From NCBI RefSeq assembly GCF_000019165.1, contig NC_010337.2, forward strand, positions 2,409,501 through 2,473,500: DNA of 64,000 bases, written 5' to 3'. The position numbers were made by a program, and so were the translations under genes. The stretch's first letter is position 1, and every line of letters begins with the position of its first letter. This document shows, piece by piece, positions 17,168 through 46,851 of this stretch. This DNA comes from Heliomicrobium modesticaldum Ice1 (GTDB taxonomy: Bacteria > Bacillota > Desulfitobacteriia > Heliobacteriales > Heliobacteriaceae). The notes under the pieces are model-generated. The model did no database searches and was not told the DNA's origin. It saw only the letters and a program-made list of their open reading frames with translations.

Positions 17168-18739
17168 TTGAGTGTCAAGCAAGTGAGCAACAACACCGAA
17201 GTGGATGAGCGATTAGCGGCATTGATGACCAATGCCAACGCCGTCCGCGCTATCGCCAGCGCCGTCGAAGGCACCCTCGGTCCGAAAGGGCTCGATACGA
17301 TGCTTGTCGACAAGTTTGGCGATGTGGTCATCACCAATGACGGCGTCACGATCCTTCAATTAATGGAGGTTAACCATCCGGCAGCGCGCATGCTGATCAA
17401 GATGGCCAAGGCCCAGCAGTCTGAAATCGGCGACGGGACGACGACGGCGACCGTCCTCGCCGGCAGCCTGATCAGCGAAGGCGTCAACCAAGTGACCAAG
17501 GGTGTTCCCGTCTCCCGAGTCATCGAAGGTTTGAAGGCGGGCGTCAAAAACGCTGTCGAGATGTTCCAACGCCATGCCCGTCCCGTCCAGGGGGTCCTGG
17601 ACCCCATGCTAGAGAAGGTAGCCCTGGTAGCCGGACGGGAACACCAGGATATCGCCCGTCTCGTCATCGAAGCGGCCCGCCTCGTCGGGGAAGAGAAGCT
17701 GCGCGAGTCCGGCTTCAAGCTCTCTGAGACGATTCGCGCCCGTGAGGGCGCCGACAACCAGGTGCTCTCTGGCGTGATCATCAACAAGACGCCCATGAAT
17801 GAGGACATGCCTAAAAAGCTGGAAGAGGCGCTCGTCCTCGTCATCGACGATGCCCTTGAGCCGGAGGAATTGGAAGAGGAGGCCCTCAGCACCGAAGCCG
17901 GCTTCAACTGGTACCGCCAGAAGCAGCAGGAGTTCCTAGAAAACGTCCGCAAGATCGTCGCCCTCGGCGTCAAGGCCGTCCTCGTCGATCGGGGCGTGGA
18001 AGATATCGCAGAAGAGATCCTCACTGACGCCGGTGTGCTTGTCATCCAGCGCGTCGCCAGCCGGGAATTGAAAAAGGCAGCCGAACATACAGGCGCCCGG
18101 GCGATCAAGCGTACGGGGCTCAAGCGCGACCCTGTCGACTTGATGCGTTACCTAGGCAAGGCAGGCACGATCACTGTCGATGAGAAACTGGAGCACGTCT
18201 GCATCTTGCAAGGGAGCGGCAAACCGGTAGCTACGGTGCTCGTCGGTGCTGCCACCGAGGAGGTTGTCGGCGAGCGAGAGCGCATCGCTAAGGACGCTGC
18301 CTCGGCCGTCCAAGCAGCCATCAAGGGTGGACTCGTCCCTGGAGGAGGCGCTGTGGAGCTGGCTGTGGCCCGCCAGATGGAGGAAGTGCGCCGGGAGACG
18401 CGGGGCATGGCCGCCTATGGCCTCGACTGTGTCGTCGCCGCTTTGAAGAAGCCTTTTGCTCAGATCATCACCAACGCCGGCTTTAACCCCCTCGAAAAAC
18501 TGGGCGACGTGATCGCCGCTCAGATGGAGCAGAACAGCGACACCCTCTCGATCAACTGTGACAACGGCGAGCTGGCCGATATGTGGGCCATGGGGGTTAT
18601 TGATCCGGCACTGGTGAAGATGCATGCCTTGAAGGCAGCCGGCGAGGTGGCCGAAGCCATCCTGCGCATCGACACGATCATCAAGAAGCGGGAGGAACGT
18701 GCCGATGGAGGCAATAACCGTGGGGAGGGAGACTGGTGA
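17168..18739 (+). CDS. Archaeal-type (group II/III) chaperonin, thermosome-like
   Basis: A 523-residue chaperonin that resembles thermosome/CCT rather than GroEL. The ATP site has [20 protein letters not shown], then [13 protein letters not shown], and [12 protein letters not shown] near residue 88; the C-terminal part has [24 protein letters not shown] and [12 protein letters not shown]. No GGM tail is present. Bacterial homologues (described from Carboxydothermus and relatives as group III chaperonins) form rings with a built-in lid and need no GroES. TTG 17168 follows GGAGGA by 7 nt. It sits between hrcA and grpE under CIRCE control and overlaps grpE by 4 nt (GTGA). Ancient transfer from archaea is a reasonable inference. 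Confidence 0.93.
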
Positions 18740-40347: not shown

Positions 40348-42423
40348 GTGAACAGTCGCGATTTGTTATTGGAAATCGGAACAGAAGAAATCCCGGCAAA
40401 ATTCATACCTTCCGCCCTGGCCCAATTGCGCCAGTTGGCCGAAAAGGGGCTGCAGGAAGCCCGCCTGGCCTACGGCGCCGTTGAAACCTACGGCACCCCG
40501 CGGCGCCTCACTCTCTATGTCAAGCAGGTGGCGGCGCAACAGGAAGACCTGCGGTTAGAAGTGAAAGGCCCGGCTGTCAAGGCCGGCTTTGACAAAGAGG
40601 GCAACCCAACAAAGGCTGCCCAGGGTTTTGCTCGTTCTCAGGGCGTCGACGTTTCGGCTCTGGTGACCCGTGATCTGGCCGGCGTGCCCTACCTCTATGC
40701 CCTCCGTACGGAAAGCGGGCGACCTGCTCGGGATGTGCTGCCGCAACTGCTGCAAGGCTGTATCAGCGGTCTTTCCTTCCCGAAACCAATGCGTTGGGCT
40801 TGGGGAGAGACGCGTTTCGCCCGGCCTATTCGCTGGATCGTCGCCCTCTATGGCGAAGAAGTCATCCCCGTCGAGGTCGAAGGGGTTCAAGCGGGCCGAA
40901 CGACTTACGGTCATCGCTTTCTCGGCGGCGGTCCAATCGAACTGACCCGACCGTCGGAATACCTGGAACGCCTGGAGAAAGCGTACGTCATCGCCGATCC
41001 GCACAAACGCAAGGCAATGATCTGGAAGCAGATCACCGAGCTCGCCGCCGCCGTAGGCGGTCAGGTCGCCGAGGACGAAGGGCTGCTCGATGAGATCAAC
41101 TACCTGGTCGAGTATCCCACGGCCCTTTGCGGCGAGGTGGATGCCGATTACATGCACCTGCCTGAAGCGGTGCTGATCACGCCGATGAAGGAACACCAGC
41201 GCTATTTCCCTGTGAAAAGTCCCTCCGGTGGTCTGTTGCCTACATTCATCACCGTCCGCAACGGCACAGCCGAGCATCTTTCGATCGTCCGAGCCGGCAA
41301 CGAAAAGGTGCTGCGGGCGCGGTTAGCCGACGCCGCTTTCTTCTATGCAGAAGACCAAAAGACACCTTTGGACGCCCAGAAGGAGAAACTGAAAAAGATC
41401 GTCTTTCAGGAAAGCCTGGGTACCGTCTATGAGCGGGTAGAACGAGAACAAGCGCTCACCGCGTTCCTGGCTGACTGCATGAACGTCCCGGCGGTGTTGC
41501 GGGAAGGCGCTCTGCGGGCTGCCGAACTGGCCAAGGCTGATCTGGTCACCCATATGGTCTATGAGTTTCCAGAACTGCAAGGGATTATGGGGGAACGGTA
41601 CGCTCTTTTGTCGGGAGAGGCGCCTGAAGTGGCCCAGGCAATCCGTGAGCACTACCAGCCCCGCTTCTCCGGCGATGCCGTCCCGAGCACCATGGAAGGG
41701 ACCCTGGTCGCTCTAGCCGATAAGATCGACGCCATCGTCGGCTGCTTCTCTATCGGCATTATTCCGACAGGCTCCCAGGATCCCTACGCGCTGCGCCGAC
41801 AGGCCCAGGGCGTCTGCCAAATCATCATGCGAGGCAACCTGCCATTGTCTTTGGCAGCGGTGATCGAGAAGTCCTACAACCTTTACGCTGCAGCGGGCCG
41901 ACCGACACGCAGTCTGGAAGAGACACAAAAGGACCTGCTCGAATTTTTCCGCCAGCGCTTGCGCTTCCTCCTCGGTGAAGAGGGAATACGCTACGACACC
42001 ATTGATGCTGTACTGGCTGAGGGCTTTGATCAACCGGCCGAGGTGCTAAAAAGGGCCAAAGCATTGTCTGACTTCCGCCAGGCCGAGGCCTTTTCGGCGC
42101 TGATCACCGCCTACACGCGAGCAGCGAACCTGGCCAAGAAGGGCGGCAGTGAACCCATCCGGCCCGACCTCTTCGAACAGGCGACAGAAGGGGAACTCTA
42201 CAAGGCCCTGCAGGCGGCAGAAGAGCAGGTCCGACAGGCTGACGGCGACTATAGCACTATCCTAGCGGCTGTAGCCGCTTTGCGTCCGGCTGTAGACGCC
42301 TTCTTTGACGCCGTCATGGTCATGGCCGACGAGCCGGTCATCCGCGAAAACCGCCTCGCCCTCCTCAACGGTGTTATCGGACTGACCCGGGGAGTGGCTG
42401 ATCTGAGTAAACTCGTTGATTAA
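40348..42423 (+). CDS. glyS: Glycyl-tRNA synthetase beta subunit
   Basis: A 691-residue subunit that recognises tRNA-Gly. Markers are LLLEIGTEEIPAKF at the start, TYGTPRRLTLYV, VEYPTALCGEVD and LITPMKEHQRYFPV, a central HD-like region (MVYEFPELQGIMGERYA) and a C-terminal anticodon-binding domain ending FFDAVMVMADEPVIRENRLALL. GTG 40348 follows GAGGAGG. The length is normal. A terminator follows, so ccpN probably has its own promoter. Confidence 0.96.
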   Translation: MNSRDLLLEIGTEEIPAKFIPSALAQLRQLAEKGLQEARLAYGAVETYGTPRRLTLYVKQVAAQQEDLRLEVKGPAVKAGFDKEGNPTKAAQGFARSQGVDVSALVTRDLAGVPYLYALRTESGRPARDVLPQLLQGCISGLSFPKPMRWAWGETRFARPIRWIVALYGEEVIPVEVEGVQAGRTTYGHRFLGGGPIELTRPSEYLERLEKAYVIADPHKRKAMIWKQITELAAAVGGQVAEDEGLLDEINYLVEYPTALCGEVDADYMHLPEAVLITPMKEHQRYFPVKSPSGGLLPTFITVRNGTAEHLSIVRAGNEKVLRARLADAAFFYAEDQKTPLDAQKEKLKKIVFQESLGTVYERVEREQALTAFLADCMNVPAVLREGALRAAELAKADLVTHMVYEFPELQGIMGERYALLSGEAPEVAQAIREHYQPRFSGDAVPSTMEGTLVALADKIDAIVGCFSIGIIPTGSQDPYALRRQAQGVCQIIMRGNLPLSLAAVIEKSYNLYAAAGRPTRSLEETQKDLLEFFRQRLRFLLGEEGIRYDTIDAVLAEGFDQPAEVLKRAKALSDFRQAEAFSALITAYTRAANLAKKGGSEPIRPDLFEQATEGELYKALQAAEEQVRQADGDYSTILAAVAALRPAVDAFFDAVMVMADEPVIRENRLALLNGVIGLTRGVADLSKLVD

Positions 42424-42495: not shown

Positions 42496-42656
42496 AAGGA
42501 TGTAATTTTTGATTAATGTACGTGCATAGAACAAAAAATCTTCCTCTTAAGCAGGAAAAAGGGTGGTCGATATAGTATAGATCATTTTGGGCATGAAACC
42601 ATATAGTATGACATAATTCTGAACAGTGGGTGAGGACAGCAAGGTGGTGATGATGT

Positions 42657-43298
42657 ATCGAACTCTCTGAACGCCAGGTCAAAATCGTACAGATCGTGAA
42701 GGAGAAAGGGCCGATCACAGGGGAGCAGATCGCCGATCTATTGGAATTGACCCGCGCGACCTTACGTCCCGATCTCGCAATCCTTACCATGTCGGGAATT
42801 CTGGAAGCCCGTCCCCGGGTAGGCTACTATTACAACGGCAGATCGGGAAACACGCTTGTGGCCCGCGCCATCAGCAAGCTCCGTGTCAAGGACATCAAAT
42901 CCCTGCCGGTGGTGGCTCGGGAAACGGTCAGCGTCTATGACGCTGTTGTCACCATGTTCACCGAGGATGTAGGGACCCTTTCTGTCGTCGATGGCGATGG
43001 CTACCTTTCCGGCGTCGTCTCCCGAAAAGACCTTCTCAAGATCGCCATCAGTGGCGGCGATGTTCACAAGATGCCTGTCGGGATGGTGATGACCCGCATG
43101 CCGAACATCATCACTGTGACACCCGATGACACGGTCTACCTCGCGGCCAAGCGGTTGATCACCCATCAAATCGACGCGTTACCTGTCGTTCGCACCTTTG
43201 TCCAGCCTAATGGGCAGGAACGGTTGGAAGTGGTGGGACGGCTGACCAAAACAAACATCACCCGCTTCTTTGTAGAACTTGCGAACGACGAATTGTAA
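42657..43298 (+). CDS. ccpN: CcpN-like repressor (wHTH plus CBS pair), anomalous start
   Basis: A 213-residue regulator with an N-terminal winged helix (IVKEKGPITGEQIADLLELTRATLRPDLA) and two CBS domains from about residue 85 (VYDAVVTMFTEDVGTLSVVD and MVMTRMPNIITVTPDDTVYLAAK). In Bacillus CcpN represses gluconeogenic genes and its CBS domains bind nucleotides. The conserved family start IELSERQVKIVQ is encoded, but a TGA lies two codons before it and no ATG/GTG/TTG precedes it in frame. Options are ATC 42657 after GGTGG, a one-base frameshift from ATG 42650/42653, or a truncated start at GTG 42696. Next to ppsR, as in Bacillus. Confidence 0.9.
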   Translation: MELSERQVKIVQIVKEKGPITGEQIADLLELTRATLRPDLAILTMSGILEARPRVGYYYNGRSGNTLVARAISKLRVKDIKSLPVVARETVSVYDAVVTMFTEDVGTLSVVDGDGYLSGVVSRKDLLKIAISGGDVHKMPVGMVMTRMPNIITVTPDDTVYLAAKRLITHQIDALPVVRTFVQPNGQERLEVVGRLTKTNITRFFVELANDEL

Positions 43299-43343
43299 AC
43301 CGGAGCAGATGATCGTTGCTTCGAAAGCGAGGAGGGGAAGCAT

Positions 43344-44174
43344 ATCGCTAGCGCGGATGGTGGAAAACCAGTCATCTACGTAGTCTCCGATTCCATCGGT
43401 GAAACCGCCGAATTTGTCGTTCGCGCCGCCGCCAGTCAGTTTGACGGCCAGGGGTTCGAGATCAAGCGAGTGCCCTATGTGCTGGAACGGAGCCACATCC
43501 AAGAAATCATCGAGGAGGCAGCGGGGCACCGCAGCATCATCGCCTATACACTGGTCATCGACGAACAACGCGAGACACTGTTGCGCCTTGCCCAGGAGCG
43601 CCAGATCCCGACGATCGATGTGCTTGGGCCGACGATCGAGCGGCTCCAGAAATTGACTAATCTGAAACCGGCCCAAAAACCGGGACTGTTGCACCAACTG
43701 GATGAGCACTATTTCCGCAAGGTCGAGGCGATTGAGTTTGCCGTCAAATATGATGATGGCAAGGATCCCCGCGGCATCCTGCACGCCGATGTGATCCTGA
43801 TCGGCGTGTCGCGAACATCGAAGACGCCTGTCTGTATGTATCTGGCCCATAAACGGATCAAGGCGGCCAACGTGCCTCTTGTTCCCGAGGTGGCGCCGCC
43901 GGAAGAACTCTTTCAACTGCCGCGACGCAAGGTGGTGGGCCTGACGATCTCGCCGCAACTGCTCAACGGTATCCGTACGAAACGGCTGCGCGCCCTCGGT
44001 CTGGCCGGCAATGCCGACTACGCCAGTCACCAGCGGATCCTACAGGAGCTGGACTACGCCGACAGCATCATGAAACGCGTCGGCTGTCCCATTATTGATG
44101 TGACCAACAAAGCGGTGGAGGAGACTGCCGCTCGCGTGTTGGAATATTATTACCGGGGGGAACGGAATGTCTAA
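43344..44174 (+). CDS. ppsR: PPDK regulatory kinase/pyrophosphorylase, probable ATC start
   Basis: A 276-residue bifunctional enzyme (DUF299) that inactivates PPDK by ADP-dependent phosphorylation and reactivates it by phosphorolysis. Motifs are VIYVVSDSIGETAEFVV at the N-terminus, the P-loop-like LIGVSRTSKTP near residue 152, and a C-terminal IDVTNKAVEETA. From the ccpN stop to the conserved VSDS there is no ATG, GTG or TTG in frame. ATC 43344 lies 6 nt after GGAGGGG, giving M-ASADGGKPVIYVVSDS. The first GTG is 43470, deep inside the fold. It overlaps ppdK, its substrate, by 8 nt, so the two are translationally coupled. Confidence 0.92.
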   Translation: MASADGGKPVIYVVSDSIGETAEFVVRAAASQFDGQGFEIKRVPYVLERSHIQEIIEEAAGHRSIIAYTLVIDEQRETLLRLAQERQIPTIDVLGPTIERLQKLTNLKPAQKPGLLHQLDEHYFRKVEAIEFAVKYDDGKDPRGILHADVILIGVSRTSKTPVCMYLAHKRIKAANVPLVPEVAPPEELFQLPRRKVVGLTISPQLLNGIRTKRLRALGLAGNADYASHQRILQELDYADSIMKRVGCPIIDVTNKAVEETAARVLEYYYRGERNV

Positions 44175-46851
44175 AAAATGGGTCTACCTTTTTGAAGAAG
44201 GTAAAGCGGAAATGAAATCCTTGTTGGGCGGCAAAGGTGCCAACCTGGCTGAGATGACCAACATCGGCCTGCCTGTTCCGCCGGGCCTCACCATCACCAC
44301 CGAGGCCTGCAACGCCTACTACGACGCGGGAAAAAACTTTCCCGAAGGGTTGATGGATCAGGTCAAGTCCGCCCTGGCTGAGGTAGAGGCCAAACTGGGC
44401 AAGAAGTTCGGCGACGCCGAAAACCCCTTGCTCGTTTCCGTTCGTTCGGGCGCTGTTTTTTCCATGCCCGGGATGATGGACACAATCCTGAACCTGGGTC
44501 TCAATGATGTGACTGTTAAGGGCCTGGCTCAGGCAACCCAGAATGACCGTTTCGCCCTTGACTGCTACCGCCGCTTTATCCAGATGTATTCCGACGTCGT
44601 CCTCGGCGCCTCCCACGCCGACTTTGAACATATCCTGGAAGAATATCGGGAACGCCAAGGCGTTCGTTTCGACAACGAACTGTCCGTAGAGAGCCTAAAC
44701 GCCCTGATCGCAGACTACAAGGCCATGGTGCGGCGTACCACAGGCCAGACCTTCCCGCAGGATCCCATGGCCCAATTGGAAGGGGCTGTCCGCGCTGTCT
44801 TCTCTTCTTGGAACAATGATCGCGCACGCGTCTACCGCCAGATCAACCGGATCCCTGACAACCTCGGCACAGCCGTCAATGTGCAGGCCATGGTTTTTGG
44901 CAACATGGGCAACGACTGCGGAACCGGCGTCGCCTTTACCCGTAACCCTTCGACAGGGGAAAAGGCACTCTACGGCGAGTACCTGATCAACGCCCAGGGC
45001 GAAGATGTCGTTGCCGGTATCCGGACGCCGCTACATATCTCTCGCATGCAGGAAGAACTGCCCGAATGCTTTGAACAGTTCGTCGAGATCTGCGGGATCC
45101 TGGAGCGGCACTACCGCAACATGCAGGACATCGAGTTCACCATCGAACGAGGCAAGCTCTGGATGCTGCAGACCCGCAACGGCAAGCGCACTGCCGCCGC
45201 CGCCGTTAAAATCGCCGTCGACATGGTCCAGGAAGGCCTGATCAGCAAGGAAGAAGCCATCCTCCGTGTCGAGCCGGAACACCTGGATCAACTGCTCCAC
45301 CGCCGCATCGACCCGACAGCCAAACTGACCGTCATTGCCACCGGCTTGCCGGCCTCTCCCGGCGCCGCCTCGGGCAAGGTCGTCTTTGACGCCGATGAGG
45401 CGGAAGCCCTTGGTAAGGCAGGGGAAAAGGTGATCCTGGTTCGGATGGAGACGACACCGGATGACATCCATGGCATCGTCCAGGCCCAGGGGATCCTGAC
45501 CAGCCGCGGCGGGATGACCTCCCACGCCGCCGTCGTAGCCCGCCAGATGGGCAAACCCTGTGTCTGCGGCTGCGAGGCCTTGCGCATCGACTACAACCGC
45601 GGCGACTTTGCCGTCGCTACAGCTTCCGGCGGAATCAAGACCTACCGCAAAGGCGACATCATCTCCATCGACGGCGCCACTGGGCGCGTCATCGAAGGGG
45701 TAGTGCCCATGCTTGAACCGGAACTGACAAAGGAGTTCCGCGTCCTCCTCGACTGGGCCGACGAGATCCGCACCCTCGGCGTCCGCGCCAACGCCGACAA
45801 GCCGGAGGAAGCGGAAATGGCCCGCAACTTTGGCGCCGCTGGCATCGGCCTCACCCGGACAGAGCACATGTTTATGGCTCAGGATAGGCTGCCCATCGTG
45901 CAGGAGATGATCCTTGCGCAGTCTCTCGAAGAGCGCGAAGCGGCGCTGGCGAAGCTGCTGCCGATGCAGCAAGGCGATTTCTACGGCATCCTCAAGGCCA
46001 TGGCAGGCTTCCCTGTCTGCATCCGCCTGCTCGACCCGCCCCTCCATGAGTTCCTGCCGAGCCTGGAAGACCTGCTTGTCGACACGACCCGCCTGCGCTG
46101 CGCCATCGAGACAACTGATGGCGACCGCAAAGAGGCCCTGCTCGATGAACTCAATGAAAAAGAACAACTGATGAAGAAAGTCCGAGCTCTCCACGAGTTC
46201 AACCCCATGCTCGGCCACCGCGGCTGTCGCTTAGGGATCACCTATCCCGAAATCTATGCCATGCAGGCGCGAGCCATCTTCCAAGCCGTGGTTCAACTGG
46301 TCGATGAAGGGTTTGACGTAGAGCCTGAGGTCGAGATACCGCTGGTGGCCGAGGTCAAAGAGCTGGCCTACTTGCGCAAGGTTGTCGAAGAGACAGCCGC
46401 TGCCGTCATGACAGAGACAGGGACCAAGTTCCACTATACCGTCGGTACCATGATCGAGGTGCCCCGGGCTGCTCTGACGGCCGACCAAATTGCAAAAGAA
46501 GCCCAGTTCTTCTCCTTCGGCACCAACGACCTGACCCAGACCACCTTCGGCTTTTCCCGCGATGACGCCGAATCGAAGTTCTTCGGCGTCTATTCGGAGC
46601 GGAAGCTCCTGTCCGACAATCCCTTTATCGTTCTTGACCGGGATGGTGTCGGCAGTCTGATGAAGATCGCCGTCGAAAGAGGGCGTGCCACCCGTCCCGA
46701 TTTGCTCGTCGGGATCTGCGGCGAACATGGCGGTGAGCCGTCATCTATTGAATTTTGCCACCTCATCGGTCTCAACTTCGTTTCTTGTTCTCCCTACCGG
46801 GTGCCCATCGCCCGGTTGGCGGCGGCCCAGGCGGCTATCCAGAACGGATAA
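44167..46851 (+). CDS. ppdK: Pyruvate, phosphate dikinase
   Basis: An 894-residue three-domain enzyme that interconverts pyruvate, ATP and phosphate with PEP, AMP and pyrophosphate. The ATP-grasp domain begins GKGANLAEMTNIGLPVPPG; the swivelling phosphohistidine domain has GGMTSHAAVVAR with catalytic His near residue 453; the C-terminal PEP/pyruvate barrel has FFSFGTNDLTQTTFGFSRDD and ends with CGEHGGEP. ATG 44167 overlaps ppsR and follows GGGGGGAA. Length normal. Placement behind ccpN and ppsR makes a compact PEP-synthesis control unit. Confidence 0.97.
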   Translation: MSKKWVYLFEEGKAEMKSLLGGKGANLAEMTNIGLPVPPGLTITTEACNAYYDAGKNFPEGLMDQVKSALAEVEAKLGKKFGDAENPLLVSVRSGAVFSMPGMMDTILNLGLNDVTVKGLAQATQNDRFALDCYRRFIQMYSDVVLGASHADFEHILEEYRERQGVRFDNELSVESLNALIADYKAMVRRTTGQTFPQDPMAQLEGAVRAVFSSWNNDRARVYRQINRIPDNLGTAVNVQAMVFGNMGNDCGTGVAFTRNPSTGEKALYGEYLINAQGEDVVAGIRTPLHISRMQEELPECFEQFVEICGILERHYRNMQDIEFTIERGKLWMLQTRNGKRTAAAAVKIAVDMVQEGLISKEEAILRVEPEHLDQLLHRRIDPTAKLTVIATGLPASPGAASGKVVFDADEAEALGKAGEKVILVRMETTPDDIHGIVQAQGILTSRGGMTSHAAVVARQMGKPCVCGCEALRIDYNRGDFAVATASGGIKTYRKGDIISIDGATGRVIEGVVPMLEPELTKEFRVLLDWADEIRTLGVRANADKPEEAEMARNFGAAGIGLTRTEHMFMAQDRLPIVQEMILAQSLEEREAALAKLLPMQQGDFYGILKAMAGFPVCIRLLDPPLHEFLPSLEDLLVDTTRLRCAIETTDGDRKEALLDELNEKEQLMKKVRALHEFNPMLGHRGCRLGITYPEIYAMQARAIFQAVVQLVDEGFDVEPEVEIPLVAEVKELAYLRKVVEETAAAVMTETGTKFHYTVGTMIEVPRAALTADQIAKEAQFFSFGTNDLTQTTFGFSRDDAESKFFGVYSERKLLSDNPFIVLDRDGVGSLMKIAVERGRATRPDLLVGICGEHGGEPSSIEFCHLIGLNFVSCSPYRVPIARLAAAQAAIQNG

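Follow-up and report, generated by a model that had tools for sequence, protein, structure and literature searches.

A probable AUC start codon for ccpN in Heliomicrobium modesticaldum, with a similar putative start on the adjacent gene ppsR

Initiator fMet-tRNA is able to start translation at AUH codons (AUC, AUU, or AUA), and in Escherichia coli it is established that initiation factor 3 (IF3) autoregulates its own synthesis via infC. IF3 destabilizes non-canonical initiation complexes (PMC8266586). In Staphylococcus aureus, where translation initiation was mapped by Kohl et al. 2026, Ribo-Ret and luciferase data placed the start of ccpN at an AUA codon behind an extended Shine-Dalgarno (SD) sequence, with an output that was ~10% of that of AUG in poor medium and as much as 30% in rich medium (PMC13009471). 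The same study found that the extended SD helix favors longer spacing, and reported the non-canonical start of ccpN to be conserved to Bacillus subtilis (PMC13009471).

The counterpart studied here lies on the plus strand of a window of 64,000 nucleotides, the whole stretch of DNA that was analyzed, within the genome of H. modesticaldum Ice1 (3,075,407 bases, single contig). The gene order is glyQ, glyS, ccpN, ppsR, and ppdK, with glyQ assigned by reading; glyS (40348-42423, GTG start; TIGR00211, 889.6 bits) precedes ccpN on the plus strand, and ppdK, encoding pyruvate, phosphate dikinase (44167-46851, plus strand, ATG start; TIGR01828, 1395 bits), follows ppsR. The ccpN product, a transcriptional regulator of gluconeogenesis (42657-43298, 213 codons), matched the CcpN equivalog model NF053704 over its full length (312.8 bits, where the cutoff is 260; residues 1-211 aligned to positions 1-208 of the 208-position profile), and Pfam placed an N-terminal HTH_11 domain at residues 6-57, followed by two CBS stretches.

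Direct reading of the sequence showed that IELSERQVKIVQIVKEKGPITGE is encoded by the frame ATC(42657) GAA CTC TCT GAA CGC CAG. Upstream, a pair of in-frame stops closes this frame (TGA 42648-42650 and TGA 42651-42653), with TGT alone separating the second from the ATC. The first in-frame ATG, GTG, or TTG is GTG 42696-42698, codon 14, within the HTH_11 domain. The initial annotation had described this closed frame exactly, and it had also been right that two nearby ATGs (42650 and 42653) lie in the wrong frame; they share one other frame, ATG ATG TAT CGA ACT CTC TGA (42650-42670, plus strand), which ends at TGA 42668-42670 and would yield MMYRTL. The motif GGTGG (42643-42647) forms part of an extended SD, AAGGTGGTGAT (42641-42651, plus strand), which matches AAGGAGGTGAT at 10 of 11 positions and is overlapped by the two stops. 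Its core ends 9 nt before ATC 42657-42659, the putative start codon, in keeping with the usual aligned spacing of 7-9 in this genome, whereas its spacing is only 5 to ATG 42653 and 2 to ATG 42650. A standard start is thus barred by in-frame stops, and ATC stands at a normal SD spacing. No masking RNA fold was indicated over 42600-42720, where local structure was weaker than in shuffles (z = 1.06). The S. aureus and B. subtilis ccpN genes resemble this locus in the gene itself, the AUH start codon, the extended SD, and the appropriate spacing; they differ in that S. aureus uses AUA rather than ATC, and in that upstream starts of the heliobacterial gene are excluded by in-frame stops, unlike those of S. 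aureus and B. subtilis.

To place this codon in a wider context, 216 matches to ccpN were condensed into 198 distinct loci whose N-terminus could be placed, with lineage counts across the phylum given by group codes. The codon aligned with ATC 42657 was TTG in 60 loci, ATC in 47, ATG in 31, ATT in 29, ATA in 19, GTG in 11, and GCT in one; it was thus of a start type in 197 of 198 loci (AUH in 95), and the sole GCT locus has an ATG one codon later. Leucine at this position was encoded by TTG in 60/60 cases, as opposed to 8/176 at codon 3, and valine by GTG in 11/11, as opposed to 38/189 at codon 14. Since an internal residue would not show such a codon bias, the column is, judged by codon usage, that of the initiator. 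Exchange between AUH and NTG on the ccpN tree required at least 11 steps, and the aligned SD spacing was 8-9 at nearly all AUH loci. Furthermore, across eight heliobacteria, codons 2-13 had identities of 0.85, 0.98, and 0.52 at the first, second, and third codon positions, respectively, and this third-position variability vanished upstream of the ATC. The pattern is that of coding sequence, indicating that these codons are translated.

The strength of this evidence varied among the 95 AUH loci. In 27 of them, no NTG stood in frame anywhere from the stop to codon 1; for 20 of the 27, this stop preceded codon 1 by 2-5 codons and in most cases fell within the SD (AGGTGA). A stop just before ATC, ATT, or ATA was found in many unrelated Firmicutes. 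Another 51 had no NTG in the nine codons upstream except one embedded in the SD, and these loci cannot alone exclude a start at that GTG or other NTG. The remaining 17, with some other upstream NTG, are ambiguous and may not be AUH starts; four of them carry an ATG directly before the isoleucine codon. As far as the alignments tell, a non-AUG start of ccpN, acting as a brake on protein synthesis, appears to be conserved across Firmicutes.

The closed frame, the SD, its spacing, and the conservation are all properties of the sequence itself, and together with the S. aureus Ribo-Ret and reporter data (PMC13009471) they strongly support the proposal, made in the initial annotation, of initiation at ATC 42657 behind GGTGG. 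Two alternatives offered alongside it, a +1 shift and a wrong base, were not supported by the comparative data considered below. We consider it very probable that ccpN is translated from the near-cognate AUC 42657, with its output held low, and that ppsR and infC use the same device. One point against the AUC start is possible competition from ATG 42653, a standard start codon lying 5 nt downstream of the SD core.

In the least improbable alternative, the mini-ORF at 42650/42653-42670 is a built-in decoy that further lowers AUC initiation or feeds the AUC by termination-reinitiation. The ORF of five to six codons (MYRTL/MMYRTL) overlaps the AUC, and its second ATG is kept within the genus, but only there; the mini-ORF is absent from other heliobacteria, and the longer spacing favored by the extended SD helix in S. 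aureus (PMC13009471) also speaks against it. Such a role seems rather improbable, and it is in any case compatible with the AUC start and no replacement for it. For a +1 shift, programmed or spontaneous, ribosomes initiating at ATG 42653 would have to skip T42656 to reach the ATC frame, and the arrangement ATG-T-ATC is indeed found in three genomes of the genus. However, the loci of the Heliobacterium, Heliophilum, and Heliorestis type lack the ATG (GGTGACAACT ATC, GGTGACAATT ATC, and GGTGACAGCG ATT) while keeping ATC or ATT. Because ATG-T-ATC is confined to the genus, a shift offers no general solution. Moreover, neither a slippery repeat nor a stop-based shift site was visible, and a spacing of 5, as at ATG 42653, is used by only about 5% of SD-led ATG starts in the genome; we regard the shift as very improbable. 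The same low standing applies to a start at GTG 42696, which no other standard start codon precedes in the frame but which would give a repressor lacking its first 13 residues and part of the HTH domain. This GTG is replaced by GTT, GTT, GTC, GTC, GCG, and GTA in six of seven other heliobacterial loci and has no SD at a usable spacing, and codons 2-13 upstream of it are under protein-level constraint. Finally, although the layout taken by itself could be accounted for by an additional base following ATG 42653, which would put a normal ATG in frame, a sequencing or assembly error is scarcely credible, because nucleotide comparison with close relatives revealed the same closed frame in G001 and G002 (loci L002 and L003), both independent genomes from the genus, and many unrelated Firmicutes have a stop just upstream of their own AUH codon.

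Downstream, ppsR also lacks a standard start, a point overlooked in the initial annotation. It encodes a bifunctional kinase/pyrophosphorylase regulating PPDK (43344-44174, plus strand; NF003742, 329.1 bits with the cutoff at 225; PF03618), and it shares with other ppsR/PDRP (DUF299) kinase-pyrophosphorylase genes both the family and the position beside ccpN and ppdK. No ATG, GTG, or TTG occurs in its frame from the ccpN stop (TAA 43296-43298) to GTG 43470, codon 43. The putative start codon, ATC 43344-43346, lies 8 nt after an AGGAGG (43330-43335, plus strand). Among 184 distinct ppsR upstream regions, an in-frame AUH at an SD spacing of 7-9 was present in 93, from about 39 taxonomic groups, and NTG in another 42. 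AUH was present in only 5 and 8 of the 184 in the two codon bins that follow. In 49 regions, the best SD was followed by another codon, and start placement is less certain there. A strict criterion (frame closed no more than 30 codons from the motif, no NTG before the motif, and AUH at SD spacing) left 22 regions. Related loci differ at this position by exchange of ATA for ATG or of ATT for TTG (Sporomusa L099 and L103; L078 and L088). From these comparisons, ppsR appears to start at ATC 43344, and AUH starts of this gene appear to recur across Firmicutes. No report of an AUH start for ppsR was found in the literature searched, which comprised open-licence PMC papers only, so that an earlier report could be missed; Kohl et al. 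2026 names neither ppsR nor Clostridia (PMC13009471). The AUH start of ppsR is the new element here. The start of ccpN in S. aureus having been published (PMC13009471), the heliobacterial ccpN is a further member of a kind already known from S. aureus and B. subtilis.

The infC gene of this genome (L223; G000:C1:1790401) has the same architecture as ccpN, with AGGGGGTGA ACATTT ATC AGC AAG and a stop inside the SD, and ATC or ATT stood at the infC start position in 21/21 genomes examined. For infC, autoregulation by IF3 is part of the described system; IF3 may also act on ccpN and ppsR. By analogy with these systems, we infer the use of AUC in this species, fMet as the first residue, dependence on IF3, and a physiological purpose; the lower output compared with AUG is likewise extrapolated from the S. 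aureus homolog (PMC13009471). In the proposed mechanism, the extended SD AAGGTGGTGAU would pair with the 3′ end of 16S rRNA and set AUC 42657 in the P site at the normal spacing of the genome. Initiator fMet-tRNA would read AUC with a third-position mismatch, and CcpN would most likely begin with fMet rather than isoleucine. Destabilization of AUC complexes by IF3 would then keep CcpN synthesis low and make it responsive to IF3 and to the conditions of initiation. AUC 43344 of ppsR and, elsewhere in the genome, infC, the gene of IF3 itself, may rely on the same device. In this way, CcpN and PpsR, linked regulators that act at the pyruvate/PEP node, would both be set at a low, initiation-limited, and adjustable level.

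A second layer of control may act on transcription. The operator-like sequence TAGTATGACATA (42604-42615, plus strand), a possible CcpN site upstream of ccpN, has its sole exact match in the window there, and TAGTATGNCAYA was found exactly in 55 of 195 ccpN upstream regions, from many Firmicutes, versus 0 in shuffles. This enrichment suggests transcriptional autoregulation added to the AUC start. CcpN control of ccpN itself has been predicted in Lactobacillales (PMC3616900).

The frequency of such starts was assessed in a genome sample of 464 kb (400 kb of it as sampled stretches) with 283 likely coding ORFs, of which 260 had a standard start with an SD. Under a strict test, in which no SD-backed standard start was available, a strong SD preceded ATC in three of the 283 ORFs, all of them in the window: ccpN, ppsR, and a minus-strand gene for a 4Fe-4S protein. 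AUC-start genes are otherwise rare among the sampled ORFs. A looser genome test, based on the one best SD within the first 60 codons, gave no excess of AUH codons (7, with about 7.5 expected by chance), and this test is too noisy. As a possible AUC case, grpE at 18718 was dropped, since GTG 18736 has a normal SD.

The ccpN finding is real, mostly explained, and conserved; the part worth following is its extension to ppsR. Gene finders limited to ATG, GTG, and TTG will truncate or mis-start both genes, and the mechanical ORF call for ppsR indeed began 42 codons late. The AUH pattern also offers a testable set of genes whose output would be expected to follow IF3 activity and, through a second gene of the operon, access to a connection of carbon control with initiation of which S. 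aureus gave a hint. It is conceivable, if somewhat doubtful, that AUC, AUU, or AUA starts on ccpN and ppsR, with infC and a few more genes, form a conserved translational regulon of Firmicutes that ties the pyruvate/PEP switch to initiation stringency (IF3 level and fMet-tRNA supply) and that has been extended in heliobacteria to, for example, 3D-domain and 4Fe-4S genes.

In their sequence layout, the genes for these last two proteins, both located in the window, look similar to ccpN and ppsR. The 4Fe-4S protein gene (57973-56744, minus strand) reads AGGGAGGTGTTTCCC ATC(57958-57956), and its only upstream GTG lies inside the SD; two homologs (L240 and L241) have ATG at the codon matching this ATC. 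The frame of the 3D-domain secreted protein (49507-48977, minus strand) opens with TGT GTC ATT(49501-49499) behind AGGAGATGA and has no NTG until codon 40. This frame is closed in three genomes of the genus (including L248 and L249), and ATT or ATC is kept at the same place in L248, L249, and the Heliobacterium locus L250; another heliobacterial genus has ATT there. In addition, two other ORFs, L271:7433-9718 (plus strand) and L271:15676-16371 (minus strand), have CTG behind a strong SD, lack any standard start backed by an SD, and are possible cases of CTG initiation.
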